NCBI RefSeq assembly: GCF_022347725.1
Contig: NZ_JAKRGB010000011.1
Span: 124,001 to 188,000, forward strand
Direction: 5' to 3'
Length of the DNA: 64,000 nucleotides
Origin: Ruegeria sp. Ofav3-42
GTDB taxonomy: Bacteria; Pseudomonadota; Alphaproteobacteria; Rhodobacterales; Rhodobacteraceae
Under the pieces are notes generated by a model. The model worked only from the letters and a program-made list of their open reading frames with translations. It made no database searches and had not been told where the DNA came from. This document shows, piece after piece, positions 406 through 7,839 of this stretch. Every line of letters starts with the position of its first letter. Positions within the stretch are counted from its first letter, which is position 1. The position numbers were made by a program, and so were the translations under genes.

Positions 406-1632
406 ATGTCCCTTGCCAACACCGCCCAAAGTTATGGGGGCGTTACCAAAACCTTTCACTGGCTGACCGCCTTGTTGATTCTGGCGGCCTTCCCGGTAGG
501 TTGGTTCGCAAACCGGCTGGCACATGCCATTGAAGACCCGGCCATTGCCACCACGCCGGAAGACCTGCAGCAAGCCGCGCAGCTATTCTCGCTGCACAAG
601 ACAATCGGTGTTACGGTCTTCATCGTTGCCCTTGCGCGCATTCTGTGGGCGCTGAGCCAACCCAAGCCTGGTCTGCTGAACGCCGAAAACAAACCCGAAG
701 CCTTTGCAGCAGAAACCGTGCATTGGCTGCTTTACGGTTCGCTGGTTCTGGTCCCTCTGACCGGCTGGATTCACCATGCCGCCACCGAAGGATTCGCCCC
801 GATCCTCTGGCCGTTTGGGCAAAACCTGCCCTTCGTTCCCAAATCCCCCGAAGCGGCCGAAGTGACCGGCGGCTTACACAAAGTACTGATGCTGGTTTTG
901 CTGGGTGCCTTGGTGCTGCACATCGCTGGTGCCCTCAAGCACCACGTGATCGACAAAGACAGCACGCTACGCCGCATGCTGCCGGGTCGCATCGAGTTGC
1001 CGGAACCACCGCAGCAATGGCACTCCACCGCCCCTGCATTCGCCGCAATTGTGATCTGGGGCGCGGCGCTGGCCATCGGTTGGTTTGACGGAGCCTATTC
1101 TGCGCACCCCACCGCAGATCACGCGTCAACCGAACTGGAAGCGGTGCAATCCGACTGGCAGGTGCAGGAAGGCACGCTGGGCATCACGATCACTCAGTTG
1201 GGCAGCCCCGTAAATGGCGGATTTTCCGAATGGACCGCCGCAATCACCTTTGACGATCCGGTTGAACCCGGGCCTGCAGGGTCCGTCGACGTGACAGTCG
1301 CAATCGGCTCTCTGAGTATTGGCACTGTGACAGATCAGGCATTGGGAACCGATTTCTTTGACAGCAGTCAGTTCCCCACCGCGCAATTCACAGCCGACCT
1401 TTTCAAGACCGACCTGGCCTATGAGGCGCGCGGCACATTGAACATCCGGGACAAATCCATGGACGTCGTGCTGCCGTTTGAACTGGACCTGCTGGACGGC
1501 ACAGCCAAAATGCAAGGCGAACTCGAGCTGAACCGGCTGGACTTTGACATCGGAAAGTCACAATCGACCGAAGACTCTCTGGCATTTGGCGTCAAAGTAA
1601 CGGTCGCACTTACCGCAACACAGGCAGAGTAA
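406..1632 (+). CDS. Cytochrome b561-YceI fusion protein
   Basis: A 408-residue fusion. Residues 1-185 form a four-helix cytochrome b561 unit with likely haem-ligand histidines at about 18 (FHWL), 64 (LHKT), 106 (VHWL) and near 163 (GLHK). A fifth hydrophobic segment follows at about 212-230. Residues from about 248 to the end form a YceI-type domain that should face the periplasm. Cytochrome b561 proteins pass electrons between quinones and periplasmic partners; YceI domains are lipocalin-like barrels that bind polyisoprenoids or quinone-like molecules. The fusion suggests electron transfer coupled to a bound isoprenoid. It converges on two further YceI genes. Confidence 0.88.
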   Translation: MSLANTAQSYGGVTKTFHWLTALLILAAFPVGWFANRLAHAIEDPAIATTPEDLQQAAQLFSLHKTIGVTVFIVALARILWALSQPKPGLLNAENKPEAFAAETVHWLLYGSLVLVPLTGWIHHAATEGFAPILWPFGQNLPFVPKSPEAAEVTGGLHKVLMLVLLGALVLHIAGALKHHVIDKDSTLRRMLPGRIELPEPPQQWHSTAPAFAAIVIWGAALAIGWFDGAYSAHPTADHASTELEAVQSDWQVQEGTLGITITQLGSPVNGGFSEWTAAITFDDPVEPGPAGSVDVTVAIGSLSIGTVTDQALGTDFFDSSQFPTAQFTADLFKTDLAYEARGTLNIRDKSMDVVLPFELDLLDGTAKMQGELELNRLDFDIGKSQSTEDSLAFGVKVTVALTATQAE

Positions 1633-1647
1633 AGACGACCAAACGAA

Positions 1648-1684
1648 AAAACGCCGGGGATAAATACCCCGGCGTTTTCATTTT
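1648..1684. terminator. Bidirectional intrinsic terminator
   Basis: A GC-rich hairpin, ACGCCGGGG and CCCCGGCGT around a short AT loop, flanked by A-rich and T-rich tracts. It lies between the convergent cytochrome b561-YceI and yceI genes and can serve both. Confidence 0.85.
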
Positions 1685-1704
1685 AATGGTTAGACCTGAC
1701 TTAT

Positions 1705-2289
1705 TCAGCCTGCCGGGCCTTCAGCCTTCTGTGCTTCGATCGAAATCCGAATCTGGACCTCATCGCTAACGAATGGGGCGAACTGGCCCAGATCGAAATC
1801 ACTGCGGATCAGAGTGGTGGTCGCATCGAAACCGGCCCACGGCTTGCCGGCCATGGGGTGCTCGCCAACCTGGTTCAGTTTTGCATCCAGAACGACGGAT
1901 TTGGTCACACCGTTCATGGTCAGATCGCCAGTGATGTTGGCGGTGTTCTCACCAGTCACCTCGATAGCTGTCGACGTGAAAGTCACCAGATCACCTTCTG
2001 TCACACCGAAGAAATCTTCGGTCATGAAGTGATCATCGCGCGGCTTCCAACCAGTGATCATTTCGACCACAGGCATAGACACGGTCACGCTGGATGCGGC
2101 GGGATCTTCCTGATCGAACATGATTTCGCCCTCAAATCCCGAGAACATGCCGGTTGTGGTCGAATAGCCCAGGTGGTTGTAGGTGAAGACAACCTGGCTG
2201 TGGCTGGGGTCCAAAACGTATTTCTCGGCGCTGGCAAATGCCGACGTCGCCGACACGGCAAGAGCAGCAGCAAGAAGAGTGGATTTCAT
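1705..2289 (-). CDS. YceI family periplasmic protein, copy 1
   Basis: A 194-residue YceI-family protein. The start chosen is MKSTLLAAALAVSA, which gives a clean signal peptide ending near AFAS and has GGAG seven bases upstream. The mature part begins YVLDPSHSQVVFTYNHLGYS, a typical YceI opening. YceI proteins are periplasmic lipocalin-like barrels that bind isoprenoid or ubiquinone-like ligands; their physiological role is poorly known. Its upstream region closely resembles that of the next yceI gene, down to the same TTGCGGAGATTGTC before the ATG (GCGGAGATTGTC shared here). It has its own control region, so the two are probably co-regulated rather than simply co-transcribed. Confidence 0.9.
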   Translation of the reverse strand: MKSTLLAAALAVSATSAFASAEKYVLDPSHSQVVFTYNHLGYSTTTGMFSGFEGEIMFDQEDPAASSVTVSMPVVEMITGWKPRDDHFMTEDFFGVTEGDLVTFTSTAIEVTGENTANITGDLTMNGVTKSVVLDAKLNQVGEHPMAGKPWAGFDATTTLIRSDFDLGQFAPFVSDEVQIRISIEAQKAEGPAG

Positions 2290-2317
2290 GACAATCTCCG
2301 CATTGTGTTTGAGTGTG

Positions 2318-2349
2318 CTTATGAGCAACCCGTTTGGTTTGCTCATAAG
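2318..2349 (-). promoter_or_regulatory. Leader inverted repeat of yceI copy 1
   Basis: Perfect 11-bp arms CTTATGAGCAA and TTGCTCATAAG enclose a 10-base loop, ending 28 bases before the yceI start. A different perfect palindrome sits at the matching place before the second yceI gene. This could be an RNA hairpin in the leader or a second protein-binding site. Confidence 0.5.
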
Positions 2350-2397
2350 TAAATGTGCCGTGTGCCTGCAGCACACAAGTCCACTTGAGACACAATC

Positions 2398-2417
2398 TCT
2401 GTTCTTTTTTGAACAGA
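2398..2417. promoter_or_regulatory. Inverted repeat TCTGTTC-N6-GAACAGA, copy 1
   Basis: A perfect inverted repeat with 7-bp arms and a TTTTTT spacer, about 110 bases upstream of the yceI copy 1 start. The same arms and spacing occur upstream of the other yceI gene, which makes a shared operator likely. The regulator is not identifiable from the window. Confidence 0.65.
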
Positions 2418-2523
2418 AGCGTAACTTGGCAATATTGTTGCGCTTTGACTCAATTAGGCACTAACGCGCAACAGGAATCCGCCGAAGATTGAGGCAACAC
2501 AAAAAGACAACTGCCCTCAACGT

Positions 2524-2539
2524 TAAACGAACTCGTTTA
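2524..2539. repeat. Short palindrome TAAACGA-AC-TCGTTTA
   Basis: Perfect 7-bp arms with a 2-base centre, about 47 bases past the stop of yceI copy 2 and upstream of the copy 1 operator. It lacks a T tract, so it is not a standard terminator. It may be another binding site or chance. Confidence 0.3.
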
Positions 2540-2585
2540 GTACTCCGTGAAACATGCCGCACACAGAGGCGAGAACCGGACTCGA

Positions 2586-3176
2586 TTACTGAGCCTTTAG
2601 TTCCGCGTTTATAACAATTTCAAGCTCATCGCCATTGGGAGGAAAGAATGCGCCCATCTCCCAATCCGAGGCTTTGATCATTGTGGTCGCTGTGATCCCC
2701 AGCCACTGCCCCTTGTAGTAATCGAGAAACTGCCCAACCGGATGATCGCCGTATCCATTGACCGTAACTTCGAAAGTTGCCGGTTTCGAAATATCCTTGA
2801 TTGTCAGATCACCAACGACATTAAGCGTATTGTCGCCTGTCTGCTCTACCGAAGTGGAGGCGAACTGAACAATAGGGAAGTTCGCCTCATTGAACAGTGC
2901 CTCGCCCACTATGTCCGAATTGAACTGATCGTTCCCTGTTACAACGCTGCTTACCGGAATGCTGAAATTGGCTTTCGCGTCAGCAACTGCACCTTCCGAA
3001 AATTCCAGTTCACCTTCAACGGCACCAAACTCGATGGATTGCCGTGAAAAACCGGCATGGGAGTAATAAACCCGAACTTCAGTGTGACCCGGATCTACCT
3101 TCCAAGTTTCTGCTGACACCGTTGAAGCCATGGCCGCAGCTGCGAATAGCGTAGTAGCAAGAACTTTAGTTTTCAT
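2586..3176 (-). CDS. YceI family periplasmic protein, copy 2
   Basis: A 196-residue YceI-family protein. The start MKTKVLATTLFAAAAM gives a signal peptide ending at VSAE and has TTGCGGAGATTGTC immediately before the ATG. The mature protein opens TWKVDPGHTEVRVYYSHAGF and keeps the YceI pattern (SIPVSSVVTG, FNEANFPIVQF, GDLTIKD). It is a paralogue of the downstream yceI gene, with clearly diverged sequence, and probably has the same periplasmic isoprenoid- or quinone-binding fold. Function unassigned. Confidence 0.9.
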   Translation of the reverse strand: MKTKVLATTLFAAAAMASTVSAETWKVDPGHTEVRVYYSHAGFSRQSIEFGAVEGELEFSEGAVADAKANFSIPVSSVVTGNDQFNSDIVGEALFNEANFPIVQFASTSVEQTGDNTLNVVGDLTIKDISKPATFEVTVNGYGDHPVGQFLDYYKGQWLGITATTMIKASDWEMGAFFPPNGDELEIVINAELKAQ

Positions 3177-3200
3177 GACAATCTCCGCAATTTTGTAAAT

Positions 3201-3218
3201 GCATTCCAATTGGAATGC
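3201..3218 (-). promoter_or_regulatory. Leader palindrome of yceI copy 2
   Basis: A perfect 18-bp palindrome, GCATTCCAA-TTGGAATGC, ending 24 bases before the yceI start. It takes the place of the 11-bp-arm hairpin found before yceI copy 1, although the base sequence differs. Confidence 0.5.
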
Positions 3219-3275
3219 TCGGTAACGAAAATGTGCCGCCCAAGGGCGGCACACAAGACTTAATCTCTCACATTT

Positions 3276-3295
3276 TCTGTTCTTAAATGAACAGA
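3276..3295. promoter_or_regulatory. Inverted repeat TCTGTTC-N6-GAACAGA, copy 2
   Basis: Same arms and 6-base spacing as the site at 2398-2417, with a TTAAAT spacer and one further T/A pair outside. It lies about 100 bases upstream of yceI copy 2 and immediately past the stop of the membrane protein gene at 3303. Confidence 0.65.
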
Positions 3296-3302
3296 ATGGA
3301 AA

Positions 3303-3821
3303 TCAGGCAAAGATTGTTACACTTCCGCTGAGTTGCCCCTTCAACGCTCGGCTGACATCCGCCGATTCCAGCGGCAGTTTCATCAGCAGGCTGCCATCGA
3401 CGTCGTACAGTTCGACCTGGTCATCCGCAAACCGAGCACCGCCCAGGGTGTCATAGCTGCGACGCAACACCGTCTGAGGGCGTCCGTTTTCATTCTTTTG
3501 CAGTACCCGAACCTCGCGCCGGATCGGATCGAAATAGGCGTCAGGGCGCGGATCCAGAACCTGAATGGTCAGCAGGCTGACGCCAACAAGAAGGAACATG
3601 AGCGACGCGGCCAGCTTGATCGGCCAGACCTCGGTTGCCATCACCGCACCGGACATCAGCCACATCGAGAATGCAACTACGATCAGAAACGCGCCTGCGA
3701 CACGCGCAAGAATAATCCTGGCCGGCCAGTTTGGCGCGAATGCTATAAGAACTGGCACTGATTGTTCATAGGTCCCGGTGGTCGCGGACTTGTCGAAGGT
3801 GTTCGTGTTCATCGCGGTCAT
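3303..3821 (-). CDS. Hypothetical two-helix membrane protein
   Basis: A 172-residue protein that I do not recognise. It has two hydrophobic segments (about residues 37-60 and 68-86) followed by a soluble C-terminal part rich in beta-type sequence (VLDPRPDAYFDPIRREVRVLQ). The start at 3821 is preferred because AGGG lies about nine bases upstream; an in-frame ATG three codons later has no such site. It is divergent from rpsF. A small inner-membrane protein is the most that can be said. Confidence 0.6.
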   Translation of the reverse strand: MTAMNTNTFDKSATTGTYEQSVPVLIAFAPNWPARIILARVAGAFLIVVAFSMWLMSGAVMATEVWPIKLAASLMFLLVGVSLLTIQVLDPRPDAYFDPIRREVRVLQKNENGRPQTVLRRSYDTLGGARFADDQVELYDVDGSLLMKLPLESADVSRALKGQLSGSVTIFA

Positions 3822-4105
3822 TTCACTGTACCCTGTTTCAGGTTGCCGTCTTTGGTTCTGTCTGTCCGGCTAGTCCCCGGTATGCAAAACAACTTTGAGC
3901 CGAAAAGCGTCAGGAATTGGGCGGCGCAGTGGAAATAGCACGACTTCACCAAGGCATATGTGTCGGCCCTTGCTCCCTGCGCGTAATCGTGTATATGGGG
4001 CCATCCTTCGCAAGAGTTATGAATCGCGCAGCCTCTCGTGGCAGGGTCGCGAAGGACCGGACAGCCCCGCCTTTGAAATGCGCCTTGATATAAACAGGAG
4101 TGCAC

Positions 4106-6189: not shown

Positions 6190-6891
6190 GTGAAACTCAT
6201 AGACTTGGCCGCTATCGACCACGAGGAGAAGTCGGCAGCCGACATTATCAACGCTGTCTGCGAGGAACTCGGCTTTGACTATGCGTCTTATGCCACCTTC
6301 AATCCCGTGAAAGGTGACGTCCAAGGCTATGCAAACTACCCGGACGAATGGAAAATTCACTATGGAAGTCAAGGCTTTCACCATTTCGACCCGACCCTCT
6401 ACCAATCTGTTCTCAGCATCGCTCCGGTTGATTGGGGGCGCTTCAACCACGACGAAAAATTCCACTCGGTTTTCCGGGACGCGCATGATTTTGGCATAAC
6501 TCCGAGGGGTTTGACCGTACCTGTACGCGGCCCCTACGGAGAGTGTGGCCTGCTGAATGTGACACGCGATTGCACGGATTCAGAGTGGGAAAAGCTCAAA
6601 AAACATGTCATGGGGGACCTGCAGATGGCGGCAGTTCAGGCGCATGATACTGTGATGCAGTCTGGCCTGCTGGCCAAGGCGCTGTATCTTCCGGCCCTTT
6701 CGACACGGGAAAAAGAGATCCTGCAATGGGTCGCTGACGGCAAATCTCAGCAAGATATTGGCGACATCCTGTCGATTTCTCACCGAACTGTCGAAGTTCA
6801 CATGCGGTCCGGGCGGGAAAAACTCGGTGCCCTGACCACGCCTCAGGCTATCGGACGGGCCATCGGACTGGGCTTAATTGCCCCAGGATAA
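6190..6891 (+). CDS. LuxR-family quorum-sensing regulator
   Basis: A 233-residue LuxR-type activator. Residues 15-150 form the autoinducer-binding domain and keep the usual invariant residues: Trp54, Tyr58, Asp67-Pro68, Trp82 and Gly107. Residues 170-230 are the LuxR helix-turn-helix (LSTREKEILQWVADGKS, SISHRTVEVHMRSGREKLG). The protein should bind an acyl-homoserine lactone and control transcription. GTG start at 6190, with AAGGG eight bases upstream. The luxI gene lies 96 bases downstream in the same direction, so it is the likely cognate receptor. Confidence 0.93.
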   Translation: MKLIDLAAIDHEEKSAADIINAVCEELGFDYASYATFNPVKGDVQGYANYPDEWKIHYGSQGFHHFDPTLYQSVLSIAPVDWGRFNHDEKFHSVFRDAHDFGITPRGLTVPVRGPYGECGLLNVTRDCTDSEWEKLKKHVMGDLQMAAVQAHDTVMQSGLLAKALYLPALSTREKEILQWVADGKSQQDIGDILSISHRTVEVHMRSGREKLGALTTPQAIGRAIGLGLIAPG

Positions 6892-6957
6892 TCAAAAAAA
6901 ACAAAAAATACGGGAAACCCCCAATAGTCTCAGCTCAAAACTTAGTTAACTTATTCT

Positions 6958-6977
6958 CTACGGTAACCAGACTGTAG
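6958..6977. promoter_or_regulatory. lux-box-like inverted repeat before luxI
   Basis: A 20-bp imperfect dyad with arms CTACGGT and CAGTCTGTAG-like symmetry: CTAC-x-GT pairs with AC-x-GTAG around a 6-base centre. This matches the general shape of a lux box. It ends ten bases before the preferred luxI ATG and touches the ribosome-binding site, an unusual place for an activator site. Confidence 0.4.
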
Positions 6978-6987
6978 GGGGATGGAA

Positions 6988-7839
6988 ATGATCATCGTAA
7001 TTGATGGTATCAACCAACATAAGTTTAATGACGTCTTGGACGAGATGTTCAAACTGCGCGCACGCGTTTTTGGAGACCGTCTTGGCTGGGAAGTCAACAT
7101 CGTTGATGGGCGCGAGCGCGACCATTTTGACGATCTGCATCCTGCACACGTAGTCAGCATCAACGACGAGGGGGACGTTGTTGGGTGCATGAGACTGCTG
7201 CAAACGACTGGACCGCACATGCTGTCCGACGTCTTCCATTCAATACTGGACGATGAACCGCCGATCCGAAGTGCTCAGGTCTGGGAAGCGACCCGGTTCT
7301 GCGTCGACACCAAAAAGCTTGGCCGCGGACGCGGAGAAAACTCGGTATCCTATGTCACCAGCGAGGTTATGATCGGTTCGTTCGAATACGCCAAAACAGC
7401 GGGCGTTTTGGACTCGATCGCCGTGATCGATCCGGTGATGAACCGTGTTCTGCAACGGTCAGGCAACGCGCCGTATGACTATCTTGGATCCGCCAAGCCG
7501 ATGGGCAAGGTGGTCGCGATGGCCGCTCTTATGGACTGCTCGGATGAGAGAATTTCGGGAATTCGGGATTATGCTGGCATTGAGCATGATGTCTTTCTGA
7601 CCGACGAACAGGCTCTGGAGCGCTTCGAAGGCGCGAAGGCAAATCCAAGTGCCGCGAATTACGACCATCAGCCGCTAACGCAGCTGGAAAAATACTTTGT
7701 CGAACAGATGAATTCGGCAACATCGAAGGCCGAAGTAGATTCAGTGTTGAAACTGATCGAAGCGCTTTCGGACCGTTTTACGCCAGAGCAGAAGACCGCT
7801 CTGCTACGCACCCCCCGTGCTTTTGCTCATGAGGCCTGA
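6988..7839 (+). CDS. Acyl-homoserine-lactone synthase (LuxI family) with C-terminal extension
   Basis: A 283-residue LuxI-type synthase that makes acyl-homoserine lactone from S-adenosylmethionine and acyl-ACP in the cytoplasm. It keeps the family's conserved residues: Arg24, Phe28, Trp34, Asp45, Asp48, Arg69, Glu100 and Arg103. Most LuxI proteins are about 190-230 residues; this one carries roughly 70 more that are predicted helical and of unknown role. The ATG at 6988 is preferred over one two codons earlier, since AGGGGG at 6976-6981 is well spaced only for the later ATG. It pairs with the luxR gene upstream. Confidence 0.93.
   Translation: MIIVIDGINQHKFNDVLDEMFKLRARVFGDRLGWEVNIVDGRERDHFDDLHPAHVVSINDEGDVVGCMRLLQTTGPHMLSDVFHSILDDEPPIRSAQVWEATRFCVDTKKLGRGRGENSVSYVTSEVMIGSFEYAKTAGVLDSIAVIDPVMNRVLQRSGNAPYDYLGSAKPMGKVVAMAALMDCSDERISGIRDYAGIEHDVFLTDEQALERFEGAKANPSAANYDHQPLTQLEKYFVEQMNSATSKAEVDSVLKLIEALSDRFTPEQKTALLRTPRAFAHEA

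Follow-up and report, generated by a model that had tools for sequence, protein, structure and literature searches.

The DNA analysed here, referred to as the window, is a stretch of 64,000 nucleotides from Ruegeria sp. Ofav3-42 (contig NZ_JAKRGB010000011.1, positions 124,001 to 188,000). It harbours two yceI genes, designated here as Y1 and Y2, each of which is preceded by a perfect copy of the palindrome TCTGTTC-N6-GAACAGA. The features of this locus are as follows:

1705 to 2289, minus strand: yceI gene Y1, 194 aa, with a putative signal peptide (PF04264, E=4.5e-41), whose orthologues carry the element across the family
2290 to 2301, minus strand: GCGGAGATTGTC, 12 bases before the Y1 ATG, common to Y2
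2323 to 2344, minus strand: leader hairpin GAGCAAACC-AAAC-GGGTTGCTC before Y1, from sequence and alignment
2353 to 2376, minus strand: terminator-like inverted repeat before Y1; most Ruegeria have a more regular one
2376 to 2378, minus strand: TTG of a −35-like element before Y1, at offset 37, as in 43 of 44 Ruegeria loci
2392 to 2415, minus strand: core TGTTC-N6-GAACA-N5-TGT before Y1, from the core search (G000:C2:126392-126415)
2398 to 2417, no strand assigned: perfect palindrome TCTGTTC-N6-GAACAGA, copy 1, exact match
2586 to 3176, minus strand: yceI gene Y2, 196 aa, of the other YceI clade (PF04264, E=1.4e-31), found in 2 of 54 genus genomes
3177 to 3188, minus strand: GCGGAGATTGTC before the Y2 ATG
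3201 to 3218, minus strand: leader hairpin GCATTCC-AATT-GGAATGC before Y2
3231 to 3254, minus strand: terminator-like hairpin GTGTGCCGCC-CTTG-GGCGGCACAT followed by TTT, before Y2
3254 to 3256, minus strand: TTG of a −35-like element before Y2, at the same offset in the sequence
3270 to 3293, minus strand: core before Y2, from the core search (G000:C2:127270-127293)
3276 to 3295, no strand assigned: perfect palindrome, copy 2, directly after the upstream gene, as in other Ruegeria
3303 to 3821, minus strand: upstream gene, 172 aa, with hydrophobic stretches by eye; 7 bases separate its stop codon from the palindrome

The original prediction, which described an identical palindrome and shared flanking bases in front of two yceI genes, was borne out at this level by a sequence check of the window. 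Both 2398-2417 and 3276-3295 are exact TCTGTTC-N6-GAACAGA sites, both loci have the stretch CTTGTGTGC...GGCACATTT as well as, in front of the ATG, the 12 bases GCGGAGATTGTC, and both downstream genes encode YceI proteins. The distance from palindrome to ATG is 108 bases for Y1 (ATG at 2289) and 99 bases for Y2 (ATG at 3176). PF04264 was matched above cut-off by Y1 and Y2, and also by the C-terminal part of the protein encoded at 406-1632. This protein is a cytochrome b561-YceI fusion, encoded convergently with yceI and beside it in most of the listed loci. The neighbourhood is widely kept, comprising genes for ribosomal proteins S6, S18 and L9, a gene resembling 3303-3821, yceI and the convergent cytochrome b561-YceI gene. 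In Escherichia coli, YceI is periplasmic.

The whole Ruegeria genome (5,136,578 bases, 56 contigs) was shown to contain these two exact copies and no third. When up to two mismatches were allowed, 29 sites were found across the genome, compared with 13 for a reversed-pattern control. A sequence-only model (42 rows) assigned E values of 1.1e-5 and 0.02 to the window sites and 0.7 to the next site in the genome, with 150 of 1268 first-look candidates being scored in this search. Within the window (1-64000), nine palindrome matches with at most three mismatches were observed against 2.35 expected, a number reached in 0 of 100 shuffles; seven of these nine are located far from yceI.

Across the genus, the exact palindrome was identified in 45 of 54 genomes, usually as a single copy, and the reversed control in none of the 54. 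All 30 loci fetched from the exact-palindrome search carry it upstream of a Y1 orthologue, and in one of them (L016) a second copy precedes a Y2 orthologue. The core TGTTC-N8-ACAG-N4-TGT is present in every one of the 54 genomes, on the strand of the Y1 orthologue and starting 109-126 bases before the aligned Y1 start; it is still kept in the nine genomes without a perfect palindrome. Six of these nine (L063, L067, L071, L073, L075 and L078, rows assigned to their genomes by sequence) exhibit changes in the right arm only, while in G026, G029 and G037 the outer two bases of the left arm differ as well. Of 95 core matches in the genus, 56 are at yceI (a single match in each genome and, in two genomes, an additional one before Y2), and the remaining 39 elsewhere equal the 39 obtained for the reversed-pattern control (sums made by hand). 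A model search of 13 genomes placed the best match at yceI in all nine genus genomes included, with matches away from yceI appearing from E=0.045. The closest named relatives of Y1 are from Ruegeria. The genome scan that had been suggested alongside the original prediction places the core before the Y1 orthologue in 54 of 54 genus genomes; the description of a symmetric, probably protein-bound site tied to yceI stands, other targets not exceeding background at the stringency used.

Among 394 sampled Rhodobacteraceae genomes, the exact palindrome was found in nine, two of which are Ruegeria, and the reversed control in one. None of the seven non-Ruegeria occurrences has a YceI gene within 1.5 kb on either side, and as candidate yceI sites these seven were set aside as chance matches. 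The perfect palindrome beside yceI is therefore characteristic of the genus, the version kept across the family being looser. A strict core, TGT[TG]C-N8-[AG]CA-N5-TGT, matches 76 of the 80 named loci from which it was derived (all except L092, L106, L122 and L126) and 22 of 39 loci from outside the genus (L158 and 38 that were fetched later). A relaxed element, TGTKC-N6-GMACA-N5-TGT with at most two mismatches, composed after both locus sets had been inspected, occurs at 69 of 74 out-of-genus Y1 loci (67 of 72 when two doubled loci are removed), compared with 0.4 of 74 in shuffled sequences; the loci lacking it are L198, L205, L217, L223 and L224. These final out-of-genus counts leave out L093, which equals G037 and belongs to the genus, and the locus collections overlap elsewhere (L050=G010, L104=G091 and L096=G084). 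Beyond the family, the strict form was found at 0 of 26 YceI loci from other alphaproteobacterial families, for which start codons were set roughly. A paired change between TGTTC/GAACA and TGTGC/GCACA appeared promising by eye; this was discarded when Fisher's test returned p=0.78, and then p=0.58 with L093 removed. Because base 4 and its partner in the arms do not vary jointly, dyad symmetry outside Ruegeria is only partial. The palindrome is thus the Ruegeria form of a looser element that is kept before Y1-type yceI genes across the family.

The two genes had been described as twins belonging to a regulated YceI set, and neither description survived closer comparison. Y1 and Y2 are ~34% identical, and a tree of 25 YceI rows places Y2 among other paralogues (support 100/99), apart from the Y1 clade (100/99); half of the inner branches of this tree (11 of 22) are unresolved, and the domain fused to the cytochrome sits on a very long branch. 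A close Y2 orthologue (93%) is encoded by G010 only, so that Y2 is present in just 2 of 54 genus genomes. A pattern search around the paralogues on contigs C11, C44 and C8 of the host genome revealed no core, nor is one present upstream of the C11 paralogue; the paralogue stretches in the tree gave no good element match on either strand (3-4 mismatches). L264 groups with the Y1 clade, and a match with 2 mismatches lies within the gene. The yceI paralogue on C11 of the same genome (L265, G000:C11:172300-173800) belongs to the Y2 clade and is without the element.

It is the control region, not the gene, that was copied; the regions before Y1 and Y2 align along their length. To the Y1 regions of 44 other Ruegeria loci, the region before Y2 is the closer of the two, with a median of 0.78 and a best value of 0.88 (L085), the region before Y1 giving a median of 0.71 and a best value of 0.84 (L050, which is G010). 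It is likely that Y2 arrived behind the ancestral control region and that Y1 kept a copy.

The position of the element relative to a putative promoter was shown to be nearly constant. Counted from the first T of the core, a TTG occurs at offset 37 in 43 and at offset 38 in one of 44 Ruegeria loci, and among 67 distinct out-of-genus sequences at offset 38 in 49, at 37 in four and at neither in 14, with a chance rate per offset of ~1. The distance from core to ATG, on the other hand, varies outside the genus from 96 to 157. A simple sigma-70-like promoter scan of 1600-4100 found no match, and the promoter would therefore be weak. If the TTG represents the −35 element, the centre of TGT-N10-ACA is estimated to lie near −65, which does not coincide with the best-known Crp class I positions, −61.5 and −71.5. 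An activator needs a fixed phase upstream of the −35 element, whereas a repressor usually overlaps the promoter. Since the distance between element and TTG is near-fixed while that between element and ATG varies, the arrangement would favour an upstream activator site over a repressor operator, although not decisively.

This bears directly on the original prediction, which had regarded the palindrome as the operator of a dedicated repressor. In this reading, a dimer on the palindrome would block yceI until an inducer is present. Such an operator would be in keeping with the perfect symmetry retained in 45 of 54 genus genomes and with the lack of any further site above background. Nevertheless, the site lies upstream of the −35-like TTG rather than over it, its spacing to the TTG is near-fixed across genera, and no regulator gene adjoins the locus among the neighbours scanned; we therefore consider repression by a dedicated protein unlikely. 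The upstream protein encoded by 3303-3821, which by eye looks membrane-type, has no Pfam or NCBIfam match, and none of 20 unlabelled upstream neighbours taken from other genera carries a DNA-binding domain (17 lack a Pfam match and three contain OmpA/BON, Band_7 and HpiC1-like domains; the gene calls for these neighbours are rough). Among the upstream neighbour in the window and these 20, then, none can be linked to the locus as a dedicated regulator.

Other candidate regulators were also considered. A LuxR-LuxI type pair, identified by Pfam, is located at 6190-7839, ~3 kb from the yceI genes, and its LuxR is 85-96% or just 54-59% identical among the listed Ruegeria loci, as if exchanged. The pair was rejected as the regulator, a LuxR match being present within ~3.5 kb at only 4 of 35 named out-of-genus loci (two contigs end early); moreover, the palindrome reads CTG-N12-CAG, unlike the CTG-N10-CAG spacing of a lux box. 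The host genome encodes 15 HTH_Crp_2 matches, eight of them over cut-off, and no perfect TGTKC-N6-GMACA was found in the stretches around these 15. One Crp-like protein, encoded at locus L245, has a relative of at least 49% identity in 7 of the 24 genomes examined. Of 11 genomes that bear the element, 6 encode an orthologue and five (G119, G066, G095, G064 and G092) do not, G092 carrying a perfect element; the protein is therefore excluded as the general regulator.

Both window sites conform to the 16-bp dyad TGT-N10-ACA of the Crp/Fnr type, as does the family-wide element with mismatches, and its geometry resembles that of Crp/Fnr sites. The E. coli Crp site, TGTGA-N6-TCACA, is alike in geometry and differs in its fifth base, which is C here. 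A second point of comparison is CceR, a LacI-family protein that we take to be RSP_1663 of Rhodobacter sphaeroides, a species of the same bacterial family as Ruegeria. The motif reported for RSP_1663 is an inverted repeat, [A/G/T]GTT-N6-8-AAC[A/C/T], with central carbon genes as predicted targets (PMC4344238). The window sites contain such a GTT-N6-8-AAC repeat, which is broken by the TGTGC variants; base 4 is T or G here, the following C is constant, and the target is yceI rather than central carbon genes. PpsR/CrtJ sites of the same species are also TGT...ACA repeats, but with the spacing TGT-N12-ACA as opposed to TGT-N10-ACA (PMC4344238). Of the described sites compared here, the one that comes closest is the Clr box of Sinorhizobium meliloti, bound by a Crp-Fnr superfamily protein responding to cAMP/cGMP and first given as the 16-bp palindrome TGTT-N8-AACA (PMC5498481, PMC10127613). 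It shares the TGT-N10-ACA layout with the window sites, yet its core, GTNNCNNNNGNNAC, has C at the fifth and G at the tenth base (consensus in PMC10127613), whereas the window sites have A at both, giving two mismatches per site. For Clr, tens of sites have been verified within one genome, against one or two for the element described here.

These likenesses raise the question of whether a known global regulator, for instance a Clr-like or CceR-like protein, has many degenerate sites to which the element belongs, the yceI copy alone being strong enough to stand out. The identity of TGTT-N8-AACA with the first Clr box and the fit of GTT-N8-AAC to the motif predicted for RSP_1663 are consistent with this. 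We regard it as doubtful, given that both window sites miss the Clr core at two positions, that TGTGC variants break the GTT, and that no excess over control was found at the stringency used, which addresses strong sites, so that weaker ones may exist.

Two further inverted repeats lie between the palindrome (repeat 1) and the ATG, as analysed in an alignment of 44 Ruegeria rows that does not include L093. The left arm of repeat 1 is invariant and its right arm is changed in six rows. Repeat 2, CTTGTGTGC...GGCACATTT, had been noted as a shared downstream stretch; it represents a separate terminator-like hairpin rather than part of the operator, a stem followed by a T run that is found at 43 of 44 Ruegeria loci. 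At one pair of its columns, 29 C-G, 13 U-A, 2 U-G and 0 C-A combinations were observed, which may reflect few events, and three other pairs depart solely via unpaired cells. Both 2353-2376 and 3231-3254, as distinct from the palindrome, show the intrinsic-terminator pattern of a G+C-rich stem and a T run and are putative terminators. The repeat is regular before Y2, now beside the 3303-3821 gene, and less regular before Y1 in the host genome; the hairpin at 3231-3254 probably serves the 3303-3821 gene as its terminator, having been compressed into the yceI promoter. In other genera, a terminator-like stem precedes the element at 8 of 36 and 5 of 34 loci (counts that include L093 as out-of-genus), and a shift of the terminator into the promoter in Ruegeria is no more than suggested by this. 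Repeat 3, situated before the ribosome site, is a leader hairpin with 84.7% of cells paired and arms that change across Ruegeria. An Rfam search of 2000-4000 gave no match at gathering level.

That the palindrome acts as a transcript stem, either as terminator of the upstream gene or as an attenuator together with the next hairpin, is very improbable. In its favour, the copy before Y2 begins 7 bases past the upstream stop codon, the copy before Y1 was listed as terminator-like, and two more inverted repeats come next, with good folding of both stretches (z=−5.2 and −5.3). Against it, of the six altered arms in 44 Ruegeria rows four break a pair and two give U-G, pairing outside the genus is often lost while TGT..ACA..TGT is kept, the second hairpin by contrast shows the pair variation given above, and the element is also kept where a terminator-like stem precedes it (in other genera, at 8 of 36 and 5 of 34 loci). 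The changes in the arms are mostly pair-breaking, which fits a protein site and not an RNA stem.

Taken together, these observations probably reflect a transcription factor site, the palindrome being its Ruegeria form in the promoter of Y1-type yceI genes and serving activation. The family-wide site would read TGT(T/G)C-N6-G(A/C)ACA over 16 bp, with a further TGT 5 bases on. Its binder would be a dimeric helix-turn-helix protein, possibly of a Crp/Fnr-like class, encoded elsewhere in the genome and placed ~65 bp before the presumed transcription start. Once bound, it would most likely aid RNA polymerase at a weak promoter, the TTG following at a near-fixed distance. Y1 would be the sole strong target seen, in line with the computed restriction of the site to Y1-type genes (plus Y2) at the stringency used, and in the lineage of the window the control region appears to have been duplicated, so as now also to precede Y2, a different YceI protein whose separate ancestry was computed directly. 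More tentatively, it is possible that a previously undescribed regulator, kept across the family, serves one gene, the Y1-type yceI, at high affinity, and that in one Ruegeria lineage a YceI of another clade came under identical control through a copy of the entire control region.

In the open-access literature searched, no described site or regulator was found for Y1-type yceI genes. A YceI-like protein was reported to be down 3.23-fold under a light regimen in exponentially growing Roseobacter litoralis (PMC4103551), and another was identified in an exoproteome study of Ruegeria pomeroyi (PMC2953401); the accessible parts of these two papers name no regulator for it. PMC3870299, as far as its accessible part indicates, concerns a Bacillus gene of the same name. 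The element described here is real and conserved, and it is an orphan.

Little is known about what YceI proteins, which are common, do in the cell or how they are regulated. A site that is near-unique in the genome and conserved across the family represents a clean bait for finding the regulator, and the signal sensed by that regulator would reveal under which circumstances YceI is required. Y2, with its copied control region, represents in turn a small case of a gene coming under the regulation of another.
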